The position numbers and the translations under genes are program-made. Below, in pieces: positions 1,633 to 20,526 of a stretch of 64,000 bases of DNA. The DNA is taken from contig PAJV01000076.1 in assembly GCA_002706765.1 (NCBI GenBank), positions 1 through 64,000 of the forward strand. Reading direction: 5' to 3'. Position 1 is the stretch's first letter. The number at the start of each line of letters is the position of its first letter. Under the pieces are notes generated by a model. That model ran no database searches. It saw only the letters and a program-made list of their open reading frames with translations, and was not told where the DNA came from. The DNA comes from Gimesia sp. (lineage in GTDB: Bacteria; Planctomycetota; Planctomycetia; Planctomycetales; Planctomycetaceae).

Positions 1633-1663
1633 TTGACTCCGTACTATGGTACTGAGTTAATAT
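1633..1663 (+). promoter_or_regulatory. MerR-type operator/promoter 1
   Basis: TTGACT (1633-1638) and TAATAT (1658-1663) are separated by 19 bases, the over-long spacing typical of MerR-activated promoters. The spacer holds a near-perfect dyad, ACTCCGTAC-tatg-GTACTGAGT, closely resembling the Tn501/Tn21 mer operator half-site. It precedes the regulator gene at 1712, implying autoregulation. Confidence 0.85.
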
Positions 1664-1671
1664 TAGATTTG

Positions 1672-1698
1672 AACAACAACAACAACAACAACAACAAC
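1672..1698 (+). repeat. (AAC)9 microsatellite in the regulator leader
   Basis: Nine uninterrupted AAC triplets lie between operator/promoter 1 and the regulator's ribosome site (GAGG at 1699-1702), so they would be transcribed as an unstructured A/C-rich leader. Changes in repeat number would alter leader length but not the reading frame. The corresponding leader in cassette B (19490-19518) has no such repeat. Confidence 0.9.
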
Positions 1699-1711
1699 GA
1701 GGATGAGTCCC

Positions 1712-2146
1712 ATGCCGTCCCTTCGCACCGCGCAAGTTGCTCGCCTCGCGGGCGTGAATGTCGAAACCCTTCGCTTCTACGAACGAGAGGGCATCCTTCC
1801 GGAGCCGCCCCGGCGGGCCTCGGGCTACCGGGATTACCCACCGGAGACCGTCAGCCGCATCCGGTTCATCAAGCGCGCCCAGGAGCTTGGCTTCTCCCTC
1901 AAGGAGATCAAGGAACTGCTCGACCTGACCACGGCGCCCCGCGCGAAGTCGGGGCGCGTGCGCCAGATGGCCGAGGCCAAGCTGGCCGAGATCGAGCATA
2001 AAATCCACGACTTGGAAGCAATGAAACAGACGCTCATGGACTTGGTATGCGGCTGCGACGGTCGTCGGCCGCTGGCCGCCTGTCCCATCATTGAGTCGTT
2101 AAGCGGCTGCCCTCGGAGTGGCGAGACGCAAACCGGAACGTCGTAA
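1712..2146 (+). CDS. MerR-family metal sensor of CueR/MerR type (cassette A)
   Basis: A 144-residue one-component metal-responsive activator. Residues 1-70 are the MerR winged-helix DNA-binding domain (VETLRFYEREGIL, then RRASGYRDYP), followed by the long dimerisation helix and a C-terminal metal loop. Ligand-type residues are Cys113, Cys115, Cys124 and Cys133. The position that is Cys in MerR, ZntR and PbrR is Ser80, as in Cu(I)-sensing CueR, and the tail CPIIESLSGC matches CueR. The Cys115-Cys124 spacing of nine is MerR-like, while CueR has eight. ATG 1712 is preferred to ATG 1703 because GAGG at 1699 is well spaced for it and the N-terminus then aligns with the cassette B copy. It probably controls operators at 1633, 2410, 5716 and 19458. 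Cu(I)/Ag(I)/Au(I) sensing is inferred. Confidence 0.9.
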   Translation: MPSLRTAQVARLAGVNVETLRFYEREGILPEPPRRASGYRDYPPETVSRIRFIKRAQELGFSLKEIKELLDLTTAPRAKSGRVRQMAEAKLAEIEHKIHDLEAMKQTLMDLVCGCDGRRPLAACPIIESLSGCPRSGETQTGTS

Positions 2147-2174
2147 CCCAGGCTTGAGCGGAAGGACCACCTAC

Positions 2175-2372
2175 ATGCTGACAGTGGACGCCCCGGATCG
2201 AAGCGTCGAGGACGGCCGTCGCGAGCGCCTGCTCTGGGTGTTGTCGGCGACCACGTTCCTCATCTTCTTTCAAGCCTACATGGTGGCCCCGCTCATTCCG
2301 CGGCTTGCAGAGACCTTTGAGGTTTCAGCGCAGGGCATCGATCTAATTGTCCCCGCCTCTCTGGGCCGGTAG
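2175..2372 (+). pseudogene. N-terminal stub of an MFS transporter
   Basis: A 65-codon frame whose sequence (a short cytoplasmic head, then a first membrane helix with FLIFFQAYMVAPLIPRLAE) looks like the beginning of a major-facilitator exporter. Such proteins have about 400 residues and 12 helices. The frame stops at TAG/GCC just after helix 1, so the rest has been deleted. It lies 28 bases behind the regulator and was probably its operon partner. Operator 2 follows within 40 bases of the stop. A functional one-helix protein is possible but unsupported. Confidence 0.65.
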
Positions 2373-2409
2373 GCCGGACGGAATTTCGGGATGAATATGG
2401 CCTTTGGTC

Positions 2410-2441
2410 TTGACTCCGTACCGTAGTCCGGAGCCGATACT
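2410..2441 (+). promoter_or_regulatory. MerR-type operator/promoter 2
   Basis: TTGACT at 2410-2415 and a -10 candidate GATACT at 2436-2441, with about 20 bases between. The dyad ACTCCGTAC-cgta-GTCCGGAGC is the most diverged of the four, with two mismatches in the right half. It lies about 95 bases ahead of the exporter operon at 2537. Confidence 0.7.
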
Positions 2442-2536
2442 TAGGTAATCGTCCTGTTTTCCGCCGGTGTTGGCTCGCCCGCCTGGAATGCAGCCGCAGG
2501 TCTCGGGCGGATGGTCAAGCTAGAAAGAAGTGAGTG

Positions 2537-3640
2537 ATGGGGAAATTGTTCCTGTGCGGCTCAATTGTGCTTGCGGGGTTGGCTCTTGCCAAGTTCGTAG
2601 TTCTTGCGCCCCGCGAAGTGAGCATCGCGGCTGTCGCCGTCCAAGATGTCGTCGCCGAGATCCAGGGAACAGGGACTGTGGCCACTGAACGACAGCCCCG
2701 GATGGGGTCGAAAATCAACGGGCGCATCGAACGGGTATTGGCGGACGAGGGAGATTTTGTGAAGGAGGGCCAGCTTCTCGCCGTCCTAGAAGATGCAGAC
2801 CTGCACCACCAGGTGGCATTGGCGCGCGCTCAGTTGGAAGCCGCCCGTGCCTCGGCACACCGGGCCAAACTGGATTGGGAACGGGCGAAGAAGTTGGTTG
2901 TTCGGGACAACGCCATTTCGGAGGCGGAGTACGACGCCTACGAGGAAGATTACCGTGTGGCGGAGAGCGCTGTCGGCGTGGAAGAGGCGGAACTCCGCTA
3001 CCGCGAGTTCAAGCTCTCGGAGACAAAGGTCGTCAGCCCCGTGAGCGGTCTCGTCACGAAGCGCTGGGTTGATCCCGGTGATGCGGTGGTCGCCGGTCAG
3101 CCGCTCCTTACAGTGGCCGAGACGGCCACGATCTGGGTTGCGGCCGACGTAGACCAGCGCTTCGCTCACAAGGTTCTCAAAGGACAGCCGGCTACGGTTA
3201 TCCTGCGCGGTCGTCCAGACAAGCCCATCCGTGGTGAGGTGTATCGAGTGAACCCGCAAGCCGACCCCATTACAGAGGAGATGCGTGTCGAGGTGACGTT
3301 TCCACTTCCGCCAGACGAACTCCAGGTCGGGCAGTGGGCGGAGGTCTACATCGAGGTGGGGACCGTCACGAATGTCCTCACGGTGCCGAAGGCCGCCGTC
3401 CTGCCCTTCGGAAATGACAAGTTCGTGTTCGTGGCCGGATCGGACGGAAAGGTGCGCCGGGCCAAGGTGGAACTGGGGCCGACCAGCCCGCGGCTTCCCT
3501 TTGTCCCCGTGACAGGAGATCTGCAAGTCGGGGAGCGGGTGATTCTCAAACCGATCGGTCTTCAGGGAGGCGAAACCGTGCGTGTGGCGGAAGCGCCCGC
3601 CGCTTCGTCTCAAGGTCGTCAGCCGGAGAGCCGGCCATGA
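2537..3640 (+). CDS. HlyD/MacA-like membrane-fusion protein of an ABC exporter
   Basis: A 367-residue periplasmic adaptor. It has one N-terminal membrane anchor (about residues 5-25), then a lipoyl/barrel-sandwich half (GSKINGRIERVL...EGDFVKEGQ), an alpha-helical hairpin rich in Ala/Glu/Arg (about 85-165), the second lipoyl half (VVSPVSGLVTKRWVDPGD) and a beta-barrel region ending near VPKAAVLPFG. ATG 2537 follows AGAAAG; a GTG at 2534 is the alternative. Its stop overlaps the permease start (ATGA), showing translational coupling with the FtsX-like permease and ATPase. The substrate is not evident. The shared operator implies metal-induced expression, either for exporting a metal or metal complex or for repairing envelope damage. 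Confidence 0.88.
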   Translation: MGKLFLCGSIVLAGLALAKFVVLAPREVSIAAVAVQDVVAEIQGTGTVATERQPRMGSKINGRIERVLADEGDFVKEGQLLAVLEDADLHHQVALARAQLEAARASAHRAKLDWERAKKLVVRDNAISEAEYDAYEEDYRVAESAVGVEEAELRYREFKLSETKVVSPVSGLVTKRWVDPGDAVVAGQPLLTVAETATIWVAADVDQRFAHKVLKGQPATVILRGRPDKPIRGEVYRVNPQADPITEEMRVEVTFPLPPDELQVGQWAEVYIEVGTVTNVLTVPKAAVLPFGNDKFVFVAGSDGKVRRAKVELGPTSPRLPFVPVTGDLQVGERVILKPIGLQGGETVRVAEAPAASSQGRQPESRP

Positions 3641-4926
3641 ACCTCGCGCTCAAGGACATCAATTATCACCGTTTCAAGTTCTTCAGCTCGGTGGCGGGCG
3701 TGAGCCAGCTCTTGATGGTCGTTCTGGCTATCGGCGGGATCATCCGGGGAGTGATCTACGACTCGGCCATCATTATTACGGAGACGGGCGCGGACCTCTG
3801 GGTCGTTGAGAAAGGCACGCTCGGCCCCTTCGCGGAGCTCTCCCGGATGCCGGAAGACTACTATCACGCCATCGAAGTAATCCCCGGCGTGGTCGAAGCC
3901 AGCCCGCTGGTGATGGCCTGGGAGCACGTCGTCCGACCGCCCCGGCCCACACCCCTGATGAAGTTCATGTACCGCAATGCGGTCCTCGGTACGAAGACGA
4001 TGGTCGAACCGGGCTGGATGGACGTGCCGATGGAGCAGCGCTTCGTCGTGATCGGCTCCAAGCCGGGCCGGATCGGCGGACCCCCACGGATCATCGCCGG
4101 ACGCGGCATCGAGGCCGACAACTACGAGATCGTGGCCGACGCGAAGGCCGGCTTCCAGCTCGGCGAGCGCGTGCGCTTGGGCTACCACGACTACACGGTG
4201 GTCGGGCTGACGAATAATATGGTCGGCCTCACTGCCGACCCGGTGATCTACACCACCTTGAAAGAGGCGCAGCAGATCCTCTTCCGGCCCGACCCGGACC
4301 TGCTCCGCGACCGCCGCCGCCGGTTCCAACAACAGTTCGCCCAGGCAGCGACGATTGCTCCCCGGCTGGCGGATGGACTGGCGTATCAGGCTTCTACTGT
4401 GGCCGAAGACACGCACTTCATCAACGCCATCGCGGTCAAGCTGGAGCCGGGAACCTCGCCCGATGCTGTGGCCCAAGAGATCGGCCGCTGGAAGCGGCTG
4501 GAGGTCTACACCGCTCCTCAGCAGGTCAACCTCCAGCTCATGGGGTCGAATCGTCTGATCCTGCTGCAACTATCGCTCTTCCGGGTGGTCCTGGTGCTGA
4601 TCGCCGGGATCATCATCGGCTTGATCATCTACACCTTCACACTGGACAAGGTGAAGGAGATCGCCGTGCTGAAACTCCTGGGGACGCCAGGGCGACGGAT
4701 CTACGGCATGATCTTCCAGCAGGCCATTCTCATGGGCGTACTGGGAACCCTTCTCGGTGGCGCGCTTGAACTGGCCATCGAACCCTTCTTCCCAAGACGG
4801 GTTGAGGCCACTTATGGGGACATTGGACAGATGCTCGTCGCCATGACGGTGGTCGCGGTGCTGGCGAGCGTGCTGGCAGTCAGGCGGGCAATGAAAGTGG
4901 ACGCGCAGAGCGTCCTGGGAACATGA
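3637..4926 (+). CDS. FtsX/MacB-like (DevC-type) ABC transporter permease
   Basis: A 429-residue permease. It has one N-terminal membrane helix near residues 15-40, a large extracytoplasmic domain (about 45-300), then three C-terminal helices (LVLIAGIIIGLIIYTF; a second beginning GMIFQQAILMGVLG; a third with VAMTVVAVLASVLAV). This is the four-helix FtsX/MacB topology. The segment VKEIAVLKLLGTPGRRI between helices is the coupling region typical of the family. It overlaps the upstream adaptor by four bases and is followed 13 bases later by the ATPase, so the three make one exporter of the mechanotransmission type. Confidence 0.88.
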   Translation: MNLALKDINYHRFKFFSSVAGVSQLLMVVLAIGGIIRGVIYDSAIIITETGADLWVVEKGTLGPFAELSRMPEDYYHAIEVIPGVVEASPLVMAWEHVVRPPRPTPLMKFMYRNAVLGTKTMVEPGWMDVPMEQRFVVIGSKPGRIGGPPRIIAGRGIEADNYEIVADAKAGFQLGERVRLGYHDYTVVGLTNNMVGLTADPVIYTTLKEAQQILFRPDPDLLRDRRRRFQQQFAQAATIAPRLADGLAYQASTVAEDTHFINAIAVKLEPGTSPDAVAQEIGRWKRLEVYTAPQQVNLQLMGSNRLILLQLSLFRVVLVLIAGIIIGLIIYTFTLDKVKEIAVLKLLGTPGRRIYGMIFQQAILMGVLGTLLGGALELAIEPFFPRRVEATYGDIGQMLVAMTVVAVLASVLAVRRAMKVDAQSVLGT

Positions 4927-4939
4927 GGCGAGGAGTGCA

Positions 4940-5662
4940 ATGGAATACGTCGTTCAGGCCGAAAAACTGGTCAAGACCTACGGAGAAGGGCATAACCGCG
5001 TCGAGGTGCTCAAGGGCCTGGACCTCGCCGTCCGTCCTGGTGAACTGTTCGCCATCATGGGGCCGAGCGGTTCGGGCAAGACCACGCTGCTCAACATTCT
5101 CGGATTGGTCATCGAGCCGACCGAGGGACGGCTCCGACTCGGCGGTGAGGATATCTACAACGGCAAGCGGCGCGACCTCCAAAGACTCCGCCGTGAGAGG
5201 ATCGGCTTTATTTTTCAGTTCGCCAACCTGATCCCGTTCCTGACAGCTCGTGAGAACGTGCTGTTGCCGCTGGAACTCATTGGCGTGCGCGGCCGGCAGG
5301 CCGTGCAGAAAGGGATGGAGCTTCTCGACTATTTGGAAGTCGCCGATCGCGCCGAGCACCTCCCCGAGCAACTCTCGGGCGGGGAAAGGCAGCGGGTGGC
5401 GATTGCCCGCGCCTTGGCGAATGAGCCAAGGGTCATCCTGGCCGATGAACCGACCGCGAGCCTGGATTCCGAGCGCGGCCTGAGCGTGATGCGGCTGCTG
5501 CGCAAGCTCTCCAGCGAACGTGGTACAGCGATCCTGGTGGTGACGCACGATACCCGCATGATCGGCGAGGTGGATCGGGTGATCCGGCTCATTGACGGGC
5601 AGGTTGTCGATGAGGTGACAGAGTCCACGGCTCCGTCAGAGCAGCCTGTAATCCAGCACTGA
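4940..5662 (+). CDS. ABC transporter ATPase (LolD/MacB type)
   Basis: A 240-residue nucleotide-binding subunit. It shows Walker A GPSGSGKTT, the Q-loop in FIFQFANLIPFLTARENV, signature LSGGERQRVAIARAL, Walker B VILADEPTASLD and the switch His in VVTHD. It partners the permease immediately upstream. The size and the TARENV segment fit the LolD/MacB/DevA group. A 3' tail (about residues 225-240) is extra and low-complexity. Confidence 0.93.
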   Translation: MEYVVQAEKLVKTYGEGHNRVEVLKGLDLAVRPGELFAIMGPSGSGKTTLLNILGLVIEPTEGRLRLGGEDIYNGKRRDLQRLRRERIGFIFQFANLIPFLTARENVLLPLELIGVRGRQAVQKGMELLDYLEVADRAEHLPEQLSGGERQRVAIARALANEPRVILADEPTASLDSERGLSVMRLLRKLSSERGTAILVVTHDTRMIGEVDRVIRLIDGQVVDEVTESTAPSEQPVIQH

Positions 5663-5715
5663 TCGCAGGCAACTCAGCTTTTTCGCGGAAGGAGTCGATT
5701 TCTCTGATTCTCCTC

Positions 5716-5747
5716 TTGACTCCGTACATGGGTACGGAGTGGATAAT
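5716..5747 (+). promoter_or_regulatory. MerR-type operator/promoter 3 (perfect dyad)
   Basis: TTGACT at 5716-5721 and GATAAT at 5742-5747 are separated by 20 bases. The spacer dyad ACTCCGTAC-atgg-GTACGGAGT is perfect and almost matches the Tn501/Tn21 mer operator (TCCGTACatgaGTACGGA). It serves the HMA/CcdA-like/ATPase genes and, having the best -10 box, is probably the strongest of the four. Confidence 0.88.
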
Positions 5748-5799
5748 GCATGCAGTCCTGGTTACTCCGGGATTCCAAGGCAAGCTCAGGAGGTGGTCG

Positions 5800-6492
5800 A
5801 TGACGGAGAAAAACAGCAGCGATTCCGGCAAAAATGTTGCAAAGCAGTGGCTTATGATCGGCGTGGTTCTTGTCGCCATCGGCGCGGGAACCTATTTCGT
5901 CGTGTTTGGTCAGAGAGGCTCGAACACCGCGCCGCCGGCCGATGCCGCGCAAGCGATTCCTAACACCGCGACCCCGGATGGCCTCACGGATGTGATCCTT
6001 CCGGTCGAGGGCATGTCCTGCGGGGCGTGTGCCGCCCGCGTCAAGGGAACGCTTAAAGGCATAGACGGCGTGGCGGATATTGAGGTGAGCTTGGCAGAGC
6101 GCCACGTCCGTGTGCGCTACGCGGATGAGAAAGTTAATCCCGAGCGTCTGGCCGAAGCAATCAATGAGCTTGGTTACAAAGCGAGCGTTCCCGCCGCACG
6201 CAAGACGGGAGCGGGAGCGCCGCAGGTCGAAACCGTTGCGAGCGCGGATGCCGGACCATTGCAGGTAAAGACTGTCACGATCCCCGTCGATGGGATGGCC
6301 TGCGAGTACTGTGCGCAATCGGTCAAAGAGAGGCTCGCCGGTATCGACGGCGTGAAAGATGTCGGAATCCGCCTCAAGGAGAAAGAGGCACGGGTGCAGT
6401 ACGTCGAGGGGAAGGTCACGCCGCAGCGCCTCGTCGAGGAAATCGCTGCCCAAGGCTTCAAAGCCGGAACGCCAACCGTCAAGGAGGAGTAA
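5800..6492 (+). CDS. Membrane-anchored tandem heavy-metal-associated (HMA) protein
   Basis: A 230-residue protein. It has an N-terminal uncleaved anchor (about residues 18-38, IGVVLVAIGAGTYFVVF), an Ala/Pro linker, HMA domain 1 (about 66-130; GMSCGAC, Cys74 and Cys77), a linker, and HMA domain 2 (about 158-224; GMACEYC, Cys168 and Cys171). With a short positively charged head before the anchor, the HMA domains should face the periplasm, like two MerP units on a tether. ATG 5800 follows AGGAGG (5788-5793). It overlaps the next gene by one base (TAATG). Likely role: binding the incoming or outgoing soft metal and handing it to the downstream CcdA-like protein or ATPase. The direction of transfer is not shown by the sequence. 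Confidence 0.9.
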   Translation: MTEKNSSDSGKNVAKQWLMIGVVLVAIGAGTYFVVFGQRGSNTAPPADAAQAIPNTATPDGLTDVILPVEGMSCGACAARVKGTLKGIDGVADIEVSLAERHVRVRYADEKVNPERLAEAINELGYKASVPAARKTGAGAPQVETVASADAGPLQVKTVTIPVDGMACEYCAQSVKERLAGIDGVKDVGIRLKEKEARVQYVEGKVTPQRLVEEIAAQGFKAGTPTVKEE

Positions 6493-7178
6493 TGACGCTC
6501 GACGAGTTCCTGCGGAATTTCGGCTCGGCCTTGTCCGAGGGATCGCTGCTGGCCCTTGGAGTCGCTCTCGTCGCGGGTGTTCTCGCCAGCGCTGTCTGTC
6601 CCTGCACGCTCCCGGTGGGAATCGGCATGGCGGGCGTCGTCGGCACCACCGAGAATCAATCTCGCCGGACGGGCTTCCTCATTGCCTTAGCGTTCTTTCT
6701 CGGCATCGTTGTCAACCTCACGCTGCTAGGGGCTGTCGCCGGTCGGCTCGGGGCGATTCTCACCGAGTCGTTTGGTCGGTACTGGGCACTGATGATGGCC
6801 GTAATCTCCTTTGCGGCTGCCATTCTCGCTTTCCGGGGACCGCGGCTGAACGTGGATCGTCTGGCCGCACTGCGAAAGCCGGGATTCATCGGGTCGTTCG
6901 GATACGGTTTCATTTTTAGCCTGGGAACCTCGGCTGCCCCGCTGCTCCTGCTGATGACAGTTGCGGCGACGCAAGCAGAGCCGGCATATGGAGCTCTGCT
7001 GGCCTTTATCTTCGGCTTGGGGCGAGGGCTTCCCTTCCTGCTTGTCGGACTCTTTGCGGGGGCACTCATTCGCTTGACTCGGATCGGAGTCTGGCGACGT
7101 GCGATTCAGACGGTGAGCGGGTTCGCCTTGCTCTTCGTCGGTGCTTATTACACCAGGGCGTTTATCGCCCTGCTTTAA
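6492..7178 (+). CDS. CcdA/DsbD-like six-helix membrane protein with a CPC motif
   Basis: A 228-residue, very hydrophobic protein of CcdA/DsbD-transmembrane type, about six helices. Helix 1 contains ASAVCPCTLPVG with Cys36 and Cys38. In CcdA/DsbD a second redox cysteine sits in helix 4 (the PC in GxxPC). Here the equivalent segment reads SLGTSAAPLLLL, and the protein has no other cysteine. It therefore should not shuttle electrons by the CcdA thiol-disulfide mechanism. The CPC pair and the neighbouring tandem HMA protein and P-type ATPase suggest a metal-handling membrane protein; this is inference. It is translationally coupled to the HMA gene and 15 bases ahead of the ATPase. Confidence 0.8.
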   Translation: MTLDEFLRNFGSALSEGSLLALGVALVAGVLASAVCPCTLPVGIGMAGVVGTTENQSRRTGFLIALAFFLGIVVNLTLLGAVAGRLGAILTESFGRYWALMMAVISFAAAILAFRGPRLNVDRLAALRKPGFIGSFGYGFIFSLGTSAAPLLLLMTVAATQAEPAYGALLAFIFGLGRGLPFLLVGLFAGALIRLTRIGVWRRAIQTVSGFALLFVGAYYTRAFIALL

Positions 7179-7193
7179 AAGTTGGAGGAAATT

Positions 7194-9590
7194 ATGGCTA
7201 CTGAAGCCGTTCAAATGAAAGTCTCGGGCCTCATGTGCTCCTTCTGCACAATGAGCGTCGAGAAGGCGCTGAAGCGCTACCCGGCTGTGAAGAGCGTCAT
7301 GGTCAACCTGGTTCATGGTATCGTCTTGGTCGAGGCCGATACGTCAAAAATGAGCCGCGCCGAGTTGGCCGATGCCGTCGAAAAGCTCGGCTACAGTGTC
7401 TCGACAACCGAGGTCCAGCAATACGCAACCGATGAGGCGCTTTTCGGCCTCATCAAGCAGCGCGGCATGATCGGGATGGGCCTGTCCATCGTCGATCTCA
7501 TTATCGATCCGCTGAATCTCTTTGGACTGCCCGCCTATCCCAGGGCACTGTTCAGCCTGGCGGTCGCCGCCTTCGTTCTCTTCTGGGTCGGCTACCCGAT
7601 TCTGAGAAAAACCTTGATGGCCCTCCGTCAGCGGGTCATCAACGCCAACGTGCTCCTCTCGGCAGGCGCGTGGGGATCGTTCATCGTGGGCGCCCTCTCG
7701 CTCTACGATCCCCGCTGGCCAAACTTTTTGCCGGTCGCCGCTTGGTTGATGTCGCTGCATCTTTTCTTCGGCTACTTCAAGCTGGATACCCGACGGAAGG
7801 CATCCGAAGCGGTCCGAAAGCTCCTGTCGCTTCAGCCCCCTCGCGCTAGAGTGCTTCGCGGAGATCAGGCCGTGGAGGTACTCACGAAGGATATCGCGGT
7901 CGGTGAACTGGTCGTCGTCCGACCCGGCGAGCGCATTCCGCTGGATGGTGAAGTGCTTGAGGGAACGGCGAGCGTGGATGAGTCGAGCTTCACGGGCGAA
8001 TCGGTCCCTGCGACAAGAGGAGTTGGTTCCAAGGTCATTGGCGGAACGCTCAACCTGGACGGTGCGCTGCAAGTTAAGGTGACCAAGGTCGGTGAGGACA
8101 GTTTCCTAAGCCAGATCGTCCGGCTCATGACCCAGATCGCCGAGCGCAAGCCTTCGATTGAACTGATGGCTGACTGGCTGATGAATTACTATGGCCCGGT
8201 CGTCTTCATTGCGGCTATCCTGGCCTTCGCAGGGTGGATGCTCGCAACGGGCGATCCCCTTCAAGCCACGGTAGTGCTGCTCACGACCATCATCATGGGC
8301 TATCCGTGCGCCCTGGGGATCACCACTCCGATGCTCGCGGCAATTGCCGGGGGGAAGGGGATTGCCATCGGTCTCTTGGTAAAGGCCAGTGAAGTCTTTC
8401 ACGGGCTTTCGCTGGTAAACACCATCGTTTTCGACAAAACGGGAACGCTCACCTACGGCCGGCCGACCGTGACCGATGTCGCAGCTTTTGGTCTCGACCG
8501 CCACGAAGTTTTGTCGATGGCCGGGTCTGTGGAGGCGCAATCGGAGCATCCCCTCGGCCAAGCCATTGGCTTCTACGCGGAACGCGAAGGAGCAAGGAAG
8601 GTCGCCGTTCAGAATTTTCGCGCCATACCCGGCAAGGGCGTGTCTGCGACTCTTGATGGAGCGGAAATTGTCGCCGGAAAGCCCTTGTTCATCGAAGAGC
8701 GGGGAATTTCGCTGTCCGGGGAGGCGGGTGCGAAAGTCGAGGCACTGAGCGCCGAAGGAAAAACGGTCGTGCTTCTTGCTCGCGGTGGCGAGGTCGTCGG
8801 TGCCATCGCGCTTCAGGACACGCCGCGTCGCGGGGCGGAACGGGTCATTGCGCGGTTGCGGGAGCGGGGTGTGACGACGGTCATGCTCACCGGCGATGCC
8901 CGGCCGGTGGCCGAGGCAATCGGTAAGTTGCTCGGTATCGATCAGGTCCAGGCGGAACTGCTGCCCGCGGACAAGGTAGCCGCTATCGAAGCGCTTCAGA
9001 AAGAGGAGCGAAATGTTGCGATGGTCGGCGATGGCATCAACGATGCCCCGGCTCTCGCCCAGGCGGATGTCGGCATCGCCATCGGCGCTGGCACCGATGT
9101 GGCAATCGAATCGGCCGGTGTCATCCTCATCGGCGACCGGCTTGACGAAGTGGTGAGCGCTCTCACCCTGGGAAAGGCAAGCTACCGCACGCTGACCGGG
9201 AATGTGATTGTCGCCGTGCTCTTCAATCTGGTGGGGATGGGGCTTGCGGCCTTTGGTCTTATCACGCCGCTCCTTGCTATCGCCTTCATGATCGTCAGCA
9301 TCTTCGCGATTCTGCTGAACACGCTCCGCATCCGAGGCATCAACCTCGAACGGGAGGAAGTCGAAGACACCGGGCCGCTTGCCGAAGTGGAACTCCTCAT
9401 TCCGAACATGGTCTGCGAAGGCTGCGCGAGCAAGATCAGCACGGCGCTCACGGCGCTGCCAGGCGTGCGCGAGGTCAAGCCGAAGGTCGCCCAAAAGCAC
9501 GTCTCCGTGCGATACGAGCCTGCGAAGGTGCAGGAACAGGGCCTGAAGCAGGCAGTTGAGAATGCTGGATTTACGGCGGTAGAGGTCTAG
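7194..9590 (+). CDS. P1B-type heavy-metal ATPase with YPC motif and N- and C-terminal HMA domains
   Basis: A 798-residue metal-pumping ATPase. The N-terminal HMA domain (about 1-70) has GLMCSFC (Cys15, Cys18). Actuator TGES lies in SSFTGESVPA. The membrane metal site reads GYPCALG (Tyr370-Pro-Cys372), where Cu and Zn pumps have CPC. The phosphorylated Asp is in DKTGT (Asp414). HP is in SEHPLG, then GDGINDAPALAQADVGIA. The last helix has MIVSIFAILLN, close to the MxxSS of CopA. A second HMA domain at the C-terminus has NMVCEGC (Cys741, Cys744), which is uncommon for the family. ATG 7194 follows GGAGG. Cu(I)-type export is suggested by the helix-8 pattern, CueR-like regulator and Csp remnant. 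The YPC change leaves specificity open. Confidence 0.92.
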   Translation: MATEAVQMKVSGLMCSFCTMSVEKALKRYPAVKSVMVNLVHGIVLVEADTSKMSRAELADAVEKLGYSVSTTEVQQYATDEALFGLIKQRGMIGMGLSIVDLIIDPLNLFGLPAYPRALFSLAVAAFVLFWVGYPILRKTLMALRQRVINANVLLSAGAWGSFIVGALSLYDPRWPNFLPVAAWLMSLHLFFGYFKLDTRRKASEAVRKLLSLQPPRARVLRGDQAVEVLTKDIAVGELVVVRPGERIPLDGEVLEGTASVDESSFTGESVPATRGVGSKVIGGTLNLDGALQVKVTKVGEDSFLSQIVRLMTQIAERKPSIELMADWLMNYYGPVVFIAAILAFAGWMLATGDPLQATVVLLTTIIMGYPCALGITTPMLAAIAGGKGIAIGLLVKASEVFHGLSLVNTIVFDKTGTLTYGRPTVTDVAAFGLDRHEVLSMAGSVEAQSEHPLGQAIGFYAEREGARKVAVQNFRAIPGKGVSATLDGAEIVAGKPLFIEERGISLSGEAGAKVEALSAEGKTVVLLARGGEVVGAIALQDTPRRGAERVIARLRERGVTTVMLTGDARPVAEAIGKLLGIDQVQAELLPADKVAAIEALQKEERNVAMVGDGINDAPALAQADVGIAIGAGTDVAIESAGVILIGDRLDEVVSALTLGKASYRTLTGNVIVAVLFNLVGMGLAAFGLITPLLAIAFMIVSIFAILLNTLRIRGINLEREEVEDTGPLAEVELLIPNMVCEGCASKISTALTALPGVREVKPKVAQKHVSVRYEPAKVQEQGLKQAVENAGFTAVEV

Positions 9591-9668
9591 GCAATGGGAG
9601 TGACTGCCACGCGACGCTGGTCGCGATTCGGGAACGGAGTATGCGGGCTGTCGTGCAACGCCGTGGCG

Positions 9669-9694: not shown

Positions 9695-9798
9695 ATCGGG
9701 GTGCGACACCAGGAGGAAGCTTTTTTTTCGATTATTCCGCATGGATATTTTATCTGTTTAGGAGTAATCAGTCCAAACCAAGAGAAAGGAATACGGTC

Positions 9799-9876
9799 AT
9801 GGCCAACGACAAACGACAACAGTGCATCGACGAGTGTGTGGCGTGCGCCCAGGTGTGCCAGGCGATGGCTGCCTAG
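9799..9876 (+). pseudogene. Remnant of a Csp/DUF326 copper-storage gene (in-frame internal deletion)
   Basis: A 25-codon frame, beginning MANDKRQQCIDECVACAQ and ending VCQAMAA. The first 18 residues correspond to the start of the intact protein at 20119 (MTNEAKQKCIDACVACSQ), and the last seven to its end (ACQAMAA). About 80 codons in between are gone without loss of frame. The start has an AAAGGA ribosome site 8-10 bases upstream. It lies downstream of the ATPase, the place the intact csp gene holds in cassette B. With only four cysteines it cannot form the Cys-lined four-helix bundle that stores Cu(I). Confidence 0.85.
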
Positions 9877-13366: not shown

Positions 13367-13412
13367 TAGTTCTCTTCTAACACTCGAACAATTTTCATAA
13401 CAACAAAGGGAT

Positions 13413-13988: not shown

Positions 13989-14211
13989 TTCGCTTCTCGC
14001 CTTCCAAAGCAAGGCGGAAAGCGGTTCACCGAACAGCTTTCTCCGCAGCCTTGCAAATCGAAGTTTGATTAGCGGCTCCTTCGCTGGCACGATCCCGCAA
14101 AGACGCTTTCCAGGGCTTCTTTGCTGATCGCCTATTTGTGCTTCTGGCTACCCGTACGCAAAGGCGTTGTGGCGTGGCCCTGCCAAGCGTTTCAGATGGA
14201 GACCCAAACCG

Positions 14212-14406
14212 ATGAGTGCCTCCGCTACTCCAAGCGAAGATCCCAAGGAAGAGCAAGAGACTGAATGCAGCCTCGATACAACCGAGAAACAGACTGAGCA
14301 AGACGCCCTCGATGATCCCACCAAGCAAGAACAATACCGCCAGGAATACCTTCGTCAGCTTCGCCTAATGTCGTGTCCCGGATGCGGTGAGACAGATGTG
14401 TTCTAG
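14212..14406 (+). CDS. Small acidic protein with C-terminal CPGCG zinc knuckle
   Basis: 64 residues: a Glu/Asp/Thr/Gln-rich disordered head followed by EQYRQEYLRQLRLMSCPGCG and a short end. GGAG at about 14198 precedes the ATG. I believe small proteins of this pattern accompany serine recombinases in planctomycetes; that is recollection, not a search. It sits just behind the recombinase relic. Function unknown. Confidence 0.5.
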   Translation: MSASATPSEDPKEEQETECSLDTTEKQTEQDALDDPTKQEQYRQEYLRQLRLMSCPGCGETDVF

Positions 14407-14470
14407 TGCATCTGTATTTCTGCGGAAGGCCGAGTCGATGACAAGCCCGTAACGGTGCGTGTGTCGCCGC

Positions 14471-15905
14471 TTACTCTGCACAGCACGAGAGTTTCGCTGG
14501 GTCCTTGTATTTGGAAATGGCGGCAATTTTTAAAGCCTCCGCCATTGTTGGGTAGACGTGCAGCAGGTCGATGAAATCGTGGAGCTTGGCACGAAATCGC
14601 AGGCCCATCGCCGCTTCATGGATAACCTCCCCTGCATCAGCACCAACCATTGAGACACCCAGGACCTCGCTCGTTTCGGCGTCGGCGACCATTTTGATCA
14701 TGCCTCTGGTATCTCGAATCGCCCCGGCACGGGGGACGAGCGACATGGGAATCGTATTGCACCAGCACTGATGGCCGGCGGCAACTGCCTGTTCCTCAGT
14801 CATGCCAACCACGGCAATCTGGGGATCAGTGAAAATGCACCGAGGGATCACCCGATGGTCGGCTGCTCGCAACTTGCCGTTGGAAAATGCGTTTCTCGCC
14901 GCAATTCCTCCGTCTTGGCTTCCCACCGGAGTCGCCATCTGGCTTTCGGCTTGCAGCCCAACAACGTCTCCGGCAGCGAAAATGTGCGGGACGCTGGTTC
15001 TCAGGTATTCGTCCACCTTGATTTCGCTACGCTCATTGACGGATATGCCTGTTTTCTCAATGCCAATCTTGTCTGTGTTCGGGCGTCGGCCTGTTGCCAC
15101 CAGCAGCTTCTCGGCTCGGTACTCTCGTTCTGTCCCGTTTATCGTGGCCGTCGCCACGACTTCATGATCTGCTTGTCGGACAGCGTTCACTGAGGCGTCG
15201 GTAACAACTTCGATACCTTCTTCTGCGAACACCTGCCCGATGGCTTGCCCGACCTCTGGCTCGTAGCCGTGGGCAATCAACTGCGAGTTTCGCTCCAGAA
15301 TCTTCACGTCGGTCCCGAAGCGGTGAAACATCTGGCCGAGTTCCAAAGAAATGTAACCACCGCCGACGATCAGCAGGGACTTGGGAAGTTCGGTCAGTTC
15401 GACTTCTTCATCCACGGTCAGCAGATCGCTGGTCAGATAAGGCACCTGATCCAAGCCCTCGATGTCAGGAGTGACTGGACGGGAGCCGGTGGCGATCAGC
15501 ACCTTCTCGCCGGTGAGCCGCTTTCCGTTGATCTCGACTGTATGCGGGTCGATGAACTGAACATGTCCCTGTTCAATGTGGATGCGACCATCGATCAGGC
15601 TCTCGTACTTCTCTCTGTCTGTAGCCGTGGACGACATCGCTCTTTTGAGCGATTAAGGCCGAGAAATCCAATTCCATTGAGCAGGAATTGAGGCCGGGAT
15701 AGCGAGGATGACGAGCATCGTTCAGGAGCTTGGCCGCTTCGATCAAGTTCTTCGACGGCAAGCAACCCCGGTTGACGCAGGTGCCGCCGACGATTCGCTC
15801 CTCCGTCATCACGGCAGTTTTGCCCAATTCCTGCGCTGCCAGTGCCGCAGCAAAGGCCGTCGAACCGGAGCCAAGGACAACGAGATCATAATTATTTTTA
15901 TCCAT
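14471..15905 (-). pseudogene. merA: Mercuric reductase MerA, split by a frameshift
   Basis: Flavin disulfide reductase that reduces Hg(II) to Hg(0) in the cytoplasm. The first part (ATG 15905) has the FAD motif [14 protein letters not shown] and the redox-active pair in [13 protein letters not shown] (Cys43, Cys48), without the N-terminal HMA domain some MerA proteins carry. The second part has KVLIATGSRPV, the NAD motif LLIVGGGYISLELG, IFAAGDVV, and the substrate-binding C-terminal Cys pair in LSCCAE. The frames part near 15609-15620, within an AG-repeat tract where CAGAGAGAAG would need one more AG unit to keep GYRQREKYESL in frame. Apart from this the roughly 477-residue protein is complete with all catalytic cysteines. 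It is the last gene of the CopZ-MerT-MerP/DsrE/MerA operon. Confidence 0.9.
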
Positions 15906-15926
15906 ATTTCTTTTTCTTTGTAAATG

Positions 15927-16526
15927 TTAGTAAACGATGACAGAATCTGCCTCAGAGAGTAATTCCGCCACCTTTGCGTATGTGACCGGCTCAACGAACT
16001 CGTAACCGGAAATCTTCTGTTTCACCTGTGGGGCGTCTCCGGTGACAATCAATATTGCAGTGTTGGCATACACCTTTGCTCCTCGACGTTGTAGCAAGTC
16101 AAGATATTCACCGTAGTTCTTGGGCATTTGATCGACAGAGAGGTTCATCTGATAGGCAATGAGCTTCTGAAGACGCACAGGCACGCTCGTTGAGGCCAAA
16201 TTGCCGTGCAGGTCGAGAATCGCACCCGCGTCGAACAGGATCGAAACATCGGCCCCTGCTTCAATGGCCGCAAAGATGATGTTGAAGCCGACACAAATCT
16301 GGCTGTCATCCTGATCCAGCCCGGTCTTCATGTGGAAAACAAGTCTCTTCCCCTTGAGGTCGGGAGCAATCTCGGAGGGAGGAGCGAATTGTTCCTCATA
16401 CGTTTGGTCCAATTCACGCCACGTTAGCAACTTGGAAACGAAGCGGGTGCCAAAATAGGCCCCCGTTCCCAGAACAATGAGTAGCCCTACGGCAATGACA
16501 ATACGTTTTCTCTTGTTTCCTGTCAC
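15927..16526 (-). CDS. Membrane-anchored DsrE-like protein in the mer operon
   Basis: 199 residues: a basic head and one membrane segment (about 8-30, RIVIAVGLLIVLGTGAYF), then a soluble domain with RLVFHMKTGLDQD, a central GFNIIFAAIEAGADVSILFD and NTAILIVTGD, the alpha/beta fold of DsrE/DsrF proteins. DsrE-type proteins carry sulphur or reduce thiols. The family's conserved cysteine is not obvious; the only Cys is in DSQICVG. Its GTG start overlaps the upstream stop (GTGA) and follows AAGGAG, so it is translationally coupled to the MerT fusion. Its role in mercury handling is unknown. Confidence 0.75.
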   Translation of the reverse strand: MTGNKRKRIVIAVGLLIVLGTGAYFGTRFVSKLLTWRELDQTYEEQFAPPSEIAPDLKGKRLVFHMKTGLDQDDSQICVGFNIIFAAIEAGADVSILFDAGAILDLHGNLASTSVPVRLQKLIAYQMNLSVDQMPKNYGEYLDLLQRRGAKVYANTAILIVTGDAPQVKQKISGYEFVEPVTYAKVAELLSEADSVIVY

Positions 16527-18061
16527 GATCCTGCTCCTTGCTTGGAGGCGGGAGACTCATCCTCATCCACTTCTCCCTTGAAACCGGCTTTCTCCACCGC
16601 AGACAAAACGGCGTTCTTCGGGAAAGTGCAGCAAGCCGGGCTTTGGACTTTGGCTCGGCCTGCCTTGAAATCAACCTGAACAGCGGTGATACCGGGAAGA
16701 TTGCGAAGAGTTTCCGAAACCGCCGTCGCACACCCTTCGCAGGTCATGCCCTCAATGTTTACAACTGTTTGACGAAGTGATTCGTTCGGAGCATTGCTCG
16801 CCTGCTTGTCGTCCATTGACCATTTGACTTCTGTTGCCGTCGTGTCGTCCGCTTCGGATGTTTCTCCTGAACTCAGAAGCTCTCCGCTGTATCCGGCTCT
16901 CTTCAAGGCCGTCTGAATCTCTTCTTTGGGGATCAGGTTGCCGGGTTCTACGCCGACGACCGCCTGCCGTTTCTCGTAGTTGATATCGACGGCGACAACG
17001 CCGGGAACCTGACGGATCGCTTGAGCGACCGTCGTAGAGCAACCTTCACAGGTCATGCCTTCGATCTGGAAGACGGCCCGATTCATATCCTCCGTCACGG
17101 CGGCGGCATCACTCGTGCCAAACAATACACCGACGTAGCTGGGAAAGAAGAGGAAGGCGACCGCCAACACGGTCACGCCCCATAGCATGACCTTGTTCAA
17201 CGTCATCATGTTGAAGCGACGTTTACCGGTCGTGGCACAGCAGTCGTCCGCCACTTCACTTTCCGTGGTACAGCAGTCGTGTCCCGATTCGGCAACAGCT
17301 TTCGTGGGACGGTAGGTGAAGTAGAACGCTGCGCCGAGAAATCCGAACGTCACGACCATGAATAGTGGGCGATACGTTTCCAGCGTGGCTGCGATCCCGG
17401 CCCCGGACACGCCAACCGCCAGCAGAAGCAGCGGTAGCCAGCAACAGGCCGAGGCCATGATCGCCGAGACGACAGTGCCGATCTTGGCGATTTTCTCGCC
17501 ACGGCCTGTCGATGATTTCGCCGTCGATGTGGGCGTCACGTTCAAGTCATTCATCCGCATTTCCTCCTGAGCGATTTGGATACCTTTCGTCACACTCCCC
17601 AGACAGCACGAACCGCTCGGATTGGAAGTCTCACAGTGACAGCCGGGGTCTTTCATCTTCGCCCGGATGTCTTCCAGAGCGTCGGAGCGGCCCTTCGCGC
17701 CAAGTTCCTCTTTGATGCTGCCAACCGAATGGCCGAAACAGTAGCACAGGGGGCGCTCCCCGCTGGACTCCTTCACACCGACCGGAACTTTCAGTTGCGA
17801 CTCGGTGAACTGCGTGTCTTCTTCCTCAGCGAAGTACACTACGTCGCAGTCCTGCGATGGGCAAAACCGCCAGCCAGTGTCATCTTTGACGGATGCGCAA
17901 TCTTCACTTGCCGTAGCACAGCAGGATCGACTGTCTGCTGTGAACTTTTCGGCGAACTCGTCATCGAGCAACGCGCCGAGCGTCAATGTGCTCACTCGTT
18001 TGGCCTTGTATCCACAGGACGGGCACTGAACCCTCTTCGCTGTCTCGGTCTGCTCGTTCAT
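16523..18061 (-). CDS. Mercury transporter fusion: CopZ-type [2Fe-2S]/Zn domain, MerT and two MerP-like HMA domains
   Basis: A 512-residue four-module protein. Residues 10-165 match the N-terminal domain of Archaeoglobus CopZ: CPSCG (13-16), paired Cys at 47-48 and around 67-72, and the [2Fe-2S]-type set CYC (106-108), CHC (141-143) and CC (152-153). Residues 188-315 are MerT: three helices, the membrane Cys pair ACCWLP (206-207) and Cys pairs in the loop (263-264, 274-275). HMA 1 is 328-392 (Cys338, Cys341) and HMA 2 is 431-497 (Cys441, Cys444). MerT brings Hg(II) inward and MerP delivers it, so this single chain should feed MerA. ATG 18061 follows GGAG. It is expressed from the divergent promoter at 18120-18151 under MerR. 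A decayed copy is at 10934. Confidence 0.9.
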   Translation of the reverse strand: MNEQTETAKRVQCPSCGYKAKRVSTLTLGALLDDEFAEKFTADSRSCCATASEDCASVKDDTGWRFCPSQDCDVVYFAEEEDTQFTESQLKVPVGVKESSGERPLCYCFGHSVGSIKEELGAKGRSDALEDIRAKMKDPGCHCETSNPSGSCCLGSVTKGIQIAQEEMRMNDLNVTPTSTAKSSTGRGEKIAKIGTVVSAIMASACCWLPLLLLAVGVSGAGIAATLETYRPLFMVVTFGFLGAAFYFTYRPTKAVAESGHDCCTTESEVADDCCATTGKRRFNMMTLNKVMLWGVTVLAVAFLFFPSYVGVLFGTSDAAAVTEDMNRAVFQIEGMTCEGCSTTVAQAIRQVPGVVAVDINYEKRQAVVGVEPGNLIPKEEIQTALKRAGYSGELLSSGETSEADDTTATEVKWSMDDKQASNAPNESLRQTVVNIEGMTCEGCATAVSETLRNLPGITAVQVDFKAGRAKVQSPACCTFPKNAVLSAVEKAGFKGEVDEDESPASKQGAGS

Positions 18062-18119
18062 CACATCGTTGCTCCGTGTTCGTTTCCAGTCGCGCTTGCC
18101 ACAAGGGCAACGTTCTCTT

Positions 18120-18151
18120 ATTATCGAGGTTGTACCTAAGTGCAAGGTCAA
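18120..18151 (-). promoter_or_regulatory. MerR-controlled divergent mer promoter
   Basis: On the minus strand TTGACC (18146-18151) and GATAAT (18120-18125) are separated by 20 bases, the stretched spacing used by MerR activators. A dyad CTTGCAC-ttag-GTACAAC lies in the spacer. It drives the CopZ-MerT-MerP gene. Its operator differs from the ACTCCGTAC set, so the two regulons should not cross-talk. Confidence 0.8.
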
Positions 18152-18230
18152 GCCGAATTAGCAATTTTTTCCTTTTTCGCTGGAAAGGCCAGCGTTTTAC
18201 CGGTTCGGACTCGGACCGTGGAGAAGTAAA

Positions 18231-18638
18231 TTGAGCAAGCGACTGACAATCAGCGAGTTGGCGAAAGCGGCTGGCATCCCAACAACGACTCTGCGTTACT
18301 ACGAGCGAATCCGTCTCGTTGAACCGGAAGATCGCAGTTGCAGCAATTACCGACTCTACGGCGATCAATCGCTTAAGAAACTGAAGTTCATTCGAGCCGC
18401 ACAAGCCATTGGTTTCACACTGGAAGACGTCAAGTCACTGCTTGCCGACGGCGAAGGCAAAGCACCAACGTGCGGCAACGTTCAGGACCTCATTGAAGCA
18501 CGATTGACCGATGTCGAGGAACGACTTAAAGACCTGCGGCATGTTCGCAAGGTGCTGAAGTCTGCCTTGGAACAATGCCACCGGCAGAAGAACTCTGACT
18601 GTTGCCAAGTCGTCGCTGACTTGAGGAACAAGAAGTGA
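18231..18638 (+). CDS. merR: Mercury-type MerR regulator
   Basis: 135 residues, divergent from the mer operon. The winged-helix head (ISELAKAAGIPTTTLRYYERI) is followed by RAAQAIGFTLEDVKSLLA, the dimerisation helix, and metal ligands Cys81, Cys116 and Cys124/125. The 35-residue and 8-9-residue spacings match the Hg(II)-binding triad of MerR. A TTG at 18231 is the start, preceded by GGAGAAG at 18220-18226; no ATG is available. It should repress and activate the promoter at 18120-18151. The YnfA-like gene follows 46 bases downstream and may be cotranscribed. Confidence 0.9.
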   Translation: MSKRLTISELAKAAGIPTTTLRYYERIRLVEPEDRSCSNYRLYGDQSLKKLKFIRAAQAIGFTLEDVKSLLADGEGKAPTCGNVQDLIEARLTDVEERLKDLRHVRKVLKSALEQCHRQKNSDCCQVVADLRNKK

Positions 18639-18684
18639 TCCGTCGATTCAAGAAAGCAACCTGTAGCGAAGACTTGGAATTTGC

Positions 18685-19011
18685 ATGGACCTGCTAAAGA
18701 TTACGATTCTGTTCATCATCACGGCTCTGGCTGAAATCGTCGGCTGCTATTTGCCGTACTTGTGGCTTAGACGTGAAGGATCGGCTTGGCTCTTGTTGCC
18801 AGCAGCGGCGAGTCTTGGCATTTTCGCGTGGCTGCTGTCCCTTCATCCGACAGCAGCCGGACGCGTCTACGCGGCTTACGGTGGCGTCTACATTTCCGTT
18901 GCGCTGGTATGGCTTTGGAAGGTCGACGGCATTCGGCCAAACACGTGGGACCTGCTCGGAGTCTGCCTTTGCTTGGCTGGTATGGCAGTGATCATGCTGG
19001 GCTCGCGCTAA
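18685..19011 (+). CDS. YnfA-family (UPF0060) small membrane protein
   Basis: 108 residues with four membrane helices: [40 protein letters not shown], then [19 protein letters not shown] and [18 protein letters not shown]. These are hallmarks of the YnfA family, relatives of small multidrug exporters. The conserved Glu in helix 1 is present. It lies behind merR on the same strand and so may be a passenger in the mercury unit. Substrate unknown. Confidence 0.9.
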
Positions 19012-19457
19012 TTCGCGACGACTCGCGACGTTTGCAAGTGTATGGGGCCACCTGACAGGAGCGTCCTTGCGGCTCAAATGCCGAATCTCACACTACAAGA
19101 GCCAAGCAGCACGACCCGTTTGTTTCCGAAGTTGGGGAAAGGAGGTCGGAAAGGCGATCGATAACGCTGAGTCAAGGGCGATGTTTCGTTGACGAACTCA
19201 ACATCGTTAGGAAACTTTAGAATCAACGGAAATCGCTGCCAACCACCTCGCATCCCACGGTCCGTTCGATCTGCGCGAGTGTGCTGGCGAAAGTTGCGCT
19301 GGTATGGGCGACCTGCACTTCAAGGAAAGCAATTCTCGGTAGATGTCGACGAGGTCCGTGAAGTCGGCTTCCTCATCTTGGTCGTCTGCTGTGGCTCCCT
19401 CGGATTGACGCGACACAACATTCTCCGCCTGCGTCCCAAAAAACAGCCAGTCTTCGC
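19012..19457. other. Gene-free spacer between mer unit and cassette B
   Basis: About 450 bases with no convincing gene on either strand. The frames present have no ribosome sites and no recognisable motifs. It ends at the cassette B operator and probably represents the joint between two cargo modules. Confidence 0.5.
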
Positions 19458-19489
19458 TTGACTCCGTACTGACGTACGGGGTGTACAAT
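19458..19489 (+). promoter_or_regulatory. MerR-type operator/promoter 4 (cassette B)
   Basis: TTGACT at 19458-19463 and TACAAT at 19484-19489 with 20 bases between. The dyad ACTCCGTAC-tgac-GTACGGGGT has one mismatch. It is the same site as those at 1633, 2410 and 5716, so the regulator at 1712 could control cassette B, whose own regulator has lost its sensor domain. Confidence 0.85.
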
Positions 19490-19518
19490 ACAGGGCAACC
19501 AAATCAGCGGAGTTGGGT

Positions 19519-20037
19519 ATGACACTGAATACAGGAAAAGTCGCTAAGCTTGCGGGGGTCAATGTCGAGACGCTGCGCTTTTATGAGCGTGAAGGCATTC
19601 TACCGGAACCGCCACGGCGAGCCTCCGGCTATCGAGAGTATCCTCGCAAAATGAAACAGAACATTGCAGTTGCCGTTCTATTCAACTTCGTCGGAATGAC
19701 TCTGGCGGTTGCCGGATTGATAACGCCGGCGGTCGCTATCGGGGTCATGATTTTCTCGATCTTTGCCATTCTTCTGAACACTTTGTCGCTGACGCGTGTG
19801 GATCTTGGACAGGATTACGACGAAGAAAACGCGTCCGTCATCGAAACGGAACTCTCCGCACCGGGAATGGTCTGCGAGGGTTGCTCGCAAAAAATTACGC
19901 AAGGGCTAATGGCACTGGACGGTGTGCAGAAGGTCATACCAGACGTTAAAGCCAAACGCGTTCATGTGCTCCATGACCCCGGTCATACGAACGAGCAACG
20001 AATGCGCGAGACCCTGAAGAAATTGGGATACGCGTGA
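19519..20037 (+). CDS. Chimera: MerR DNA-binding head fused to P-type ATPase helices 7-8 and C-terminal HMA domain
   Basis: 172 residues in one open frame. Residues 1-43 are the head of a MerR regulator (KVAKLAGVNVETLRFYERE, RRASGYREYP), nearly identical to the gene at 1712. From about residue 44 it becomes the end of a metal ATPase: RKMKQNIAVAVLFNFVG, a second helix with GVMIFSIFAILLNTLSL, then an HMA domain with GMVCEGC, matching the last part of the ATPase at 7194-9590. An in-frame deletion of the intervening operon explains it. The helical hairpin would put both the DNA-binding head and the HMA domain in the cytoplasm. The MerR part lacks the dimerisation helix, so activity as a regulator is doubtful. 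It has its own operator and is 81 bases ahead of csp. Confidence 0.85.
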   Translation: MTLNTGKVAKLAGVNVETLRFYEREGILPEPPRRASGYREYPRKMKQNIAVAVLFNFVGMTLAVAGLITPAVAIGVMIFSIFAILLNTLSLTRVDLGQDYDEENASVIETELSAPGMVCEGCSQKITQGLMALDGVQKVIPDVKAKRVHVLHDPGHTNEQRMRETLKKLGYA

Positions 20038-20118
20038 TCAACACGAACAAATTCCAGTTGGATGACGGTCCACTCTCGCTGGAGTTTTCACCAAAATTGG
20101 ACCATAAAGGAAAAGATG

Positions 20119-20445
20119 ATGACGAATGAAGCAAAACAAAAATGCATTGACGCGTGCGTCGCATGCTCTCAGGAATGTGAAACATGTGCCACGCAGTGCT
20201 GTGCGCCGGCAGGAGGCGAACGAGCCGACTGTCTGAGATCATGCCTGGACTGCGCTGCAATGTGCTGGCTGTGTGCGTCGCTGTGTAGTCGCGACTCCCA
20301 GTTTTGCGGGGACATCTGCAAGCTATGCGCGACGATTTGCAACGCCTGCGCGGACGAGTGCTCGAAGCATGAAGCCGAACAATGTAAGCGCTGCGAGGAA
20401 GCCTGCCGTCGATGTGCTGAAGCGTGTCAGGCGATGGCCGCATAG
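20119..20445 (+). CDS. Four-helix Cys-rich copper-storage protein (Csp/DUF326)
   Basis: 108 residues with 24 cysteines spaced mostly as CxxxC and CxxC (CIDACVACSQECETC, CLDCAAMCWLCASLC, CKLCATICNACADEC, CEEACRRCAEAC). This is the pattern of the Csp four-helix bundles whose inward-facing cysteines bind many Cu(I) ions. There is no signal peptide, so it should be cytosolic (Csp3-like). AAAGGA precedes the start. ATG 20119 is chosen over ATG 20116 because it matches the N-terminus of the remnant at 9799. It is downstream of the chimera and operator 4 and followed by a terminator, so it should be metal-induced. It is the only intact gene of cassette B. Confidence 0.92.
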   Translation: MTNEAKQKCIDACVACSQECETCATQCCAPAGGERADCLRSCLDCAAMCWLCASLCSRDSQFCGDICKLCATICNACADECSKHEAEQCKRCEEACRRCAEACQAMAA

Positions 20446-20491
20446 CCGAGGAAAGCTGGACGTTTAAGTTTCGCCGATGGACGCTATTTAT

Positions 20492-20526
20492 GCCTGTCCG
20501 GACAGCCTGGGTCCGGCAGGCTTTTT
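20492..20526 (+). terminator. Intrinsic terminator after csp
   Basis: GCCTGTCCGGA pairs with TCCGGCAGGC (one bulged base) around a short loop and is followed by TTTTT at 20522-20526. It closes cassette B. Confidence 0.85.

Follow-up and report, generated by a model that had tools for sequence, protein, structure and literature searches.

The window analysed here is the whole 64,000-nucleotide stretch at positions 1 to 64,000 of contig PAJV01000076.1 from Gimesia sp. (assembly GCA_002706765.1), and it carries two incomplete metal cassettes, A and B, the features of which are collected in Table 1. Cassette A holds genes for a MerR-type regulator, an ABC exporter, an HMA protein, a CcdA-like protein and a P1B ATPase, followed by a scar of csp, a gene for a copper-storage protein; cassette B holds an operator, a chimeric frame and an intact csp. 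The genes, the scar, the chimera and the operators all lie where an initial annotation of the sequence had placed them, as was confirmed by Pfam and NCBIfam assignments, an operator scan, shuffles of the scar and comparison with the relative in Roseimaritima sediminicola JC651 (locus L004; NZ_WIAD01000078.1, a 14.5-kb contig).

Table 1. Coordinates of the features of cassettes A and B in the window and of the related cassette of R. sediminicola (L004).
Sequence	Feature	Coordinates	Strand	Basis
Window, A	Operator/promoter A1, before merR-A	1632..1664	+	pattern match at 1633
Window, A	merR-A, intact regulator; Ser at CueR Ser77 column, C-x8-C loop	1703..2146	+	
Window, A	MFS transporter gene remnant, N-terminal ~60 residues	2175..2372	+	
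Window, A	Operator-like site A2, weaker, 2 mismatches	2409..2441	+	pattern match at 2410
Window, A	Periplasmic adaptor, HlyD/RND type	2534..3640	+	Pfam/NCBIfam
Window, A	FtsX/MacB-type permease	3637..4926	+	Pfam/NCBIfam
Window, A	ABC ATP-binding protein	4940..5662	+	Pfam/NCBIfam
Window, A	Operator A3, before HMA-CcdA-ATPase	5715..5747	+	pattern match at 5716
Window, A	Protein with two HMA domains	5800..6492	+	Pfam/NCBIfam
Window, A	CcdA/DsbD_TM-like protein	6492..7178	+	DsbD_TM by Pfam/NCBIfam
Window, A	P1B ATPase, HMA at both ends, YPC replacing CPC	7194..9590	+	Pfam/NCBIfam
Window, A	csp scar, 25 codons, internal deletion	9799..9876	+	match to joined ends of csp-B
Window, B	Operator B1, formerly that of merR-B	19457..19489	+	pattern match at 19458
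Window, B	Chimeric frame, 172 codons; MerR helix-turn-helix and HMA recognised	19519..20037	+	
Window, B	csp-B, intact, Csp3-like; upstream ATG at 20062	20119..20445	+	
Window, B	Possible terminator after csp-B	20498..20524	+	
L004	Operator before merR	5623		
L004	merR	5685-6104		
L004	Operator before lipoprotein gene	6146		
L004	Lipoprotein	6232-6708		
L004	CcdA-like	6705-7406		
L004	ATPase	to 9919		
L004	csp	10001-10327		

A deletion in each cassette

The csp gene of cassette B (csp-B) is 99% identical to that of R. sediminicola, where the whole cassette is kept in the order operator, MerR, operator, lipoprotein, CcdA, ATPase and csp. The window matches L004 DNA in two collinear blocks (96% over 5.8 kb and 97% over 0.9 kb), and the pieces that cassette B retains show 94-99% DNA identity to it. 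A base-by-base comparison placed the joint in B at a single 3,716-bp deletion with a 2-bp overlap ('TC'), which took most of merR, the second operator, the lipoprotein and CcdA genes and most of the ATPase gene, in agreement with the proposal that B had collapsed into a chimera. The chimera is therefore made up of the 42 N-terminal residues of MerR-B and ~130 C-terminal residues of the B ATPase, the latter comprising the end of the membrane part and an HMA domain, and owing to the deletion csp-B now lies 661 bp downstream of the merR operator B1. A repeat-driven deletion was ruled out for this joint, at which only 2 bp are in common.

In cassette A it is csp that has been lost. The scar corresponds to the first 15 and the last 10 residues of csp-B, with 17 of 25 residues identical and the best split after residue 15; its alignment score of 101 was not equalled in any of 100,000 shuffles, the best of which scored 58, and at the DNA level 57 of 78 positions are identical to csp-B. 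Here the repeated Cys motifs of csp may have guided the deletion; an intact parent of A's csp was not found in any locus searched. The losses are complementary, as had been claimed, A's csp being reduced to 25 codons and nearly all of B but csp being deleted. The two deletions, the homology of the cassettes, the intact A genes and the intact csp-B are established at the level of sequence.

The age of the B joint can be judged from the pieces that remain. The retained merR piece differs from L004 at 7 of 126 bases (1 nonsynonymous) and the retained ATPase piece at 20 of 390 (2 nonsynonymous), and with 24 synonymous and 3 nonsynonymous changes in all, the joint is young relative to the divergence from L004, which gives no support to an old decay of B. 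We consider that the undecayed chimera fits a recent deletion, and that its state does not show it to be functional. It is extremely improbable that the chimera acts as a membrane-bound metal sensor or a competitor of MerR-A, its MerR helix-turn-helix (HTH) being tethered by the final transmembrane helices of the pump, with the HMA domain in the cytosol. Such a role would agree with the open frame directly behind an operator, with the recognition of both end domains and with the few nonsynonymous changes, but the MerR part has lost both its dimerisation helix and its metal loop, and a low nonsynonymous rate is expected if most of the divergence preceded the deletion. Moreover, although the reading frame is preserved at both joints, that of the B chimera and that of the A scar, an in-frame joint arises by chance one time in three in each case and is no evidence of function.

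It is very improbable that an assembly error made the B joint, the scar or both. The genome is in 78 contigs; however, the B joint is clean and flanked on either side by diverged sequence, it is situated inside a 604-kb contig, and the genome yielded no second intact copy of csp-B.

Kinship of the cassettes and their surroundings

The initial annotation had regarded A and B as two copies of one cassette. A common cassette type is supported, but the two are not copies. When A is compared with the intact form of B in L004, the MerR proteins are 64% identical, the ATPases 55% and the CcdA proteins 29%; the ABC exporter of A has no counterpart in L004, the lipoprotein of B has none in A, and in L004 the HMA protein of A has matches to other HMA domains only. 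The ATPase and CcdA identities and the differing accessory genes rule out duplication of one cassette within the genome, and cassette A was not found in the R. sediminicola genome when window positions 1300-14000 were used as query. At E 1e-100 the ATPase of A matched 970 plasmid records, and the six at 60-80% identity (73-75% among the matches listed), to which it is nearer than to the B ATPase, come from Adhaeribacter, Hymenobacter and Ca. Manganitrophus. The G+C content of cassette A is 60.9%, against 50.5% for window positions 21000-64000. The low identity between A and B, their differing accessory genes, the nearer plasmid relatives of A and its G+C content together imply separate acquisitions, and we conclude from these comparisons that A and B are distant relatives, separately acquired members of one cassette type.

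Eight outside loci were scanned by tblastn (L004, L007-L012 and L014). Three of them, the Manganitrophus plasmids L009, L010 and L012, are nearly identical to one another, and the sequence of L014 opens within the ATPase gene. The plasmid islands resemble cassette A in their ATPase and, in three of the six (L007, L008 and L011), in the HMA and CcdA genes that adjoin it; the CcdA-like protein of A is 69% identical to that of the Adhaeribacter cassette and 61% to that of Hymenobacter, and the MFS remnant is 58% identical to the MFS protein of the Hymenobacter cassettes, which supports a common ancestry of the set. They differ from A in that CsoR lies upstream in Adhaeribacter (L007) and Hymenobacter sp. 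DG01 (L008), whereas the Ca. Manganitrophus islands have MerR with merA or fragments of it, and in the stretches read neither the permease nor the ATP-binding gene of A had a match. That csp adjoins this ATPase in other genomes, as anticipated, was seen in two of the eight loci: in L004 csp is directly downstream, and in L008, which has the order csp, CsoR, glutaredoxin, ATPase, MFS, HMA and CcdA, it is upstream. It looks like an optional part of the cassette, its absence from the remaining six loci being only partly informative. The complete order merR-ABC-HMA-CcdA-ATPase-csp, for which the initial annotation had suggested a genome search, was not found in the genomes searched within the phylum or in the plasmid loci.

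Close relatives of the individual genes are few. At E 1e-150 the ATPase of A was found only in its own genome among 99 relatives, and at 1e-200 the B ATPase was found in 2 of 392 genomes of the phylum, its own and G398; a further set of 29 gave one, again G398. The permease of A was likewise confined to its own genome among 294; plasmids gave nine permease records, all 35-37% identical, which were rejected as cassette members since in the three neighbourhoods inspected they stand beside TetR genes instead. No ATPase relative was found in viral contigs. Literature searches gave no match combining csp, P-type ATPase and mercury, nor one combining the terms 'P1B-type ATPase' and 'YPC'.

The divergence of the B stretch from L004 is patchy, ranging over 13865-20938 from <1% to about 20% (up to 21%) per 200 bases, which indicates that recombination has mixed variants. 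Much of merA and YnfA diverges by <1%, and parts of the merTP HMA end and of the mer promoter and merR start by 12-21%. The rpoB gene of the genome is only 71-77% identical to that of R. sediminicola (84% to a same-genus genome), so the stretch with 94-99% identity must have moved between lineages.

A number of further features surround the cassettes. The merA gene at 14471-15905 on the minus strand is split in two frames, the R. sediminicola copy being one 507-codon frame, and a sequencing error is possible. A second, decayed mer set (a MerT-like stretch at 10934-11689 and a short merR frame at 11878-12195) shows 69-74% DNA identity over 10934-12195 to the set at 17154-18455, and at 10099-10662 lies the C-terminal piece of a BFD/sarcosine-oxidase A3-type protein, the front part of which is gone. 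A direct repeat (96-98%) at 1336-1486 and 13413-13646 flanks a 12-kb block containing cassette A; its left copy is without 82 bp between two 11-bp repeats, and no further copies were found elsewhere in the genome. Pieces of a DDE transposase occupy 1-1300, at the start of contig C76, and the end sequence there recurs at the ends or edges of contigs C1, C53 and C27.

Operators, regulators and metal

A scan of the window for the operator pattern, allowing up to three mismatches (0.01 expected by chance), found sites at 1633, 2410, 5716 and 19458, listed as eight matches because each also matches the opposite strand. Operators B1 and A3 have their core arms in common and a 20-bp spacer, as counted by eye. 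A run of AAC/CAA triplets occupies 1675-1700, between operator A1 and the start of merR-A. At B a sigma-70 scan, blind to MerR-type promoters through its 16-18 bp spacing, found none, and terminator-like sites in the region (2, against 1.3 in shuffles) were not counted as evidence. MerR-A and MerR-B have the same DNA-reading stretch, LAGVNVETLRFYEREGILPEPPRRASGYR, over 29 residues, and 39 of 45 residues are identical across the HTH region. Given the identical DNA-reading residues and the common operator cores, it is plausible that MerR-A controls B's csp in trans.

With regard to the metal, MerR-A and MerR-B both carry Ser in the alignment column of CueR Ser77, which holds Cys in a Bacillus Hg-type MerR (4ua1), in the MerR of the adjoining mer operon (18231) and in the Manganitrophus MerR; neither regulator has the Cys at the first of three metal-binding positions that marks Hg(II) MerR proteins. 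Ser at that position is given as a mark of monovalent-metal sensors (PMC11591864) and is tied to monovalent-metal sensing (PMC10028694). The serine in both regulators points to Cu(I)/Ag(I), although by overall resemblance the two are closer to Hg-type MerR. Likewise, the csp-B product matches Csp3 structures (residues 5-108 of 5fig against 6-108 of the query, E 1.4e-16; Pfam DUF326) and has the likeness along its length to the Cys-rich four-helix bundle that is expected of a Csp3, a kinship that favours copper. Its 108-residue form starts MTNEAKQK, and a 127-residue form from the upstream ATG is possible.

Our preferred explanation, to which we assign a probability of about 0.5, is that two members of one cassette type, each acquired on its own, have undergone complementary deletions and that MerR-A runs csp-B along with its own genes. 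The cassette type comprises MerR, a CcdA-like protein, a YPC-type P1B ATPase, a cytosolic copper-storage protein and elongated MerR-type promoters. Cassette A has kept all but csp, cut down by its internal deletion, and the one deletion in B has brought csp under the merR operator. MerR-A would still bind operator B1, to judge from the 29-residue identity in its DNA-reading part, and on a rise in Cu(I) (or Ag(I)) would switch on csp-B together with the A genes; A would then handle the metal at the membrane and the csp-B product would hold it in the cytosol.

Several observations weigh against this explanation. With one mismatch allowed, the operator core occurs 6 times in the genome against 4 for a reversed control, and 2 times against 2 in R. 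sediminicola; as the genome-wide count is not above the control, only the placement of the operators in the window is used. A fifth exact core is present at C25:14833 (L038) before another MerR gene, and MerR-A therefore need not be the regulator acting at B; behind that MerR gene lies one for an HMA/membrane protein. The closeness of csp-B to L004 (2 of 327 bases differ) may merely reflect recent transfer, the adjoining YnfA being equally close (likewise 2 of 327). Finally, the PDB matches of MerR-A are nearer to Hg-type MerR (E 3.3e-29) than to CueR (5.4e-25), its best NCBIfam family among those listed is MerR (TIGR02051, 140.7 bits, below the cut-off of 150.85; the CueR family TIGR02044 gave 120.8 bits, below its cut-off of 147.4), and its metal loop is C-x8-C, as in Hg-MerR.

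Mercury, or else some other soft divalent metal, may be what the cassettes handle in place of copper, a reading that we regard as unlikely. In its favour, the whole sequence of MerR-A comes nearest to Hg-MerR, the operators are of mer type by consensus, and merA, merTP and Hg-type merR adjoin the ATPase relatives in Ca. Manganitrophus and Adhaeribacter and B itself. Against this stand the Ser in place of Cys in both regulators, the Csp3 type of csp and the presence of CsoR and csp beside the Hymenobacter ATPase.

A stronger rival, though less probable than the preferred explanation, is that the two cassettes decayed independently and have no functional link, A working without storage and csp-B being a passenger awaiting loss. 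Many genes around them are broken (the two-frame merA, the second mer remnant and the MFS remnant), the B deletion looks young, and the genome has two further csp genes (C75:58668-58988 and C76:240684-240986; 49% and 37% identical to csp-B), so that storage does not depend on csp-B. However, neither csp-B nor its start region or operator is damaged, and as a result of the deletion a promoter lies a short way upstream of csp.

The pump and the store

The preferred explanation leaves the direction of the pump to be considered. ATPase A scores 429.6 bits with the copper-translocating subfamily TIGR01511, above the cut-off of 397, and 424.1 with the CopA equivalog NF007952, far below the cut-off of 1316. 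The sixth membrane helix carries YPC and not CPC in all six ATPases aligned (A, B, L007, L008, L009 and G398). Two pumps offer a comparison, by description only. According to PMC11082258, CopAL6 has YPC and HMA domains at both ends, as ATPase A has, and in E. coli it made the cells less resistant to copper and led to the highest copper content. The CopA of Sulfolobus solfataricus, likewise with YPC, differs in being cited in PMC4541151 as a verified copper-resistance protein. Because CopAL6, similarly described, raised the copper of E. coli, outward pumping by ATPase A is uncertain. It is even conceivable, though we think it improbable, that the YPC ATPase with its two HMA domains delivers Cu(I) toward the cytosolic store instead of exporting it, and that regulator, pump and Csp formed a metal-banking unit which two complementary deletions have split and the one surviving MerR serves in trans.

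The arrangement can be set beside known systems. It resembles CueR-CopA in having a regulator of the MerR family that carries Ser in the Ser77 column, an elongated promoter and a P1B ATPase behind it, but the regulator is nearer Hg-MerR overall, with its C-x8-C loop, the pump is distinguished by YPC and by an HMA domain at each end, and there are additional genes for a CcdA-like protein, an ABC exporter and a Csp. The csp-B product can be aligned from end to end with Csp3 chains, 5fig among them. Storage together with efflux is a known pairing, since Csp3 protects copA-deleted E. coli, as described in PMC6747150. In B. subtilis, by contrast, csp3 is described with yhjR under SigK (PMC9484137), whereas here csp belongs to a MerR-type cassette and lies directly behind a P1B ATPase.

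In this cassette Csp3-type storage comes immediately after a P1B ATPase of the YPC type, the direction of which is uncertain. This neighbourhood bears on the question of whether pumps of this kind carry copper out of the cell or supply a store, and of the points left over the direction of the YPC pump is the most interesting. Should the split be functional, it would be a natural case of two horizontally acquired operons that mutually complement their losses via one transcription factor.

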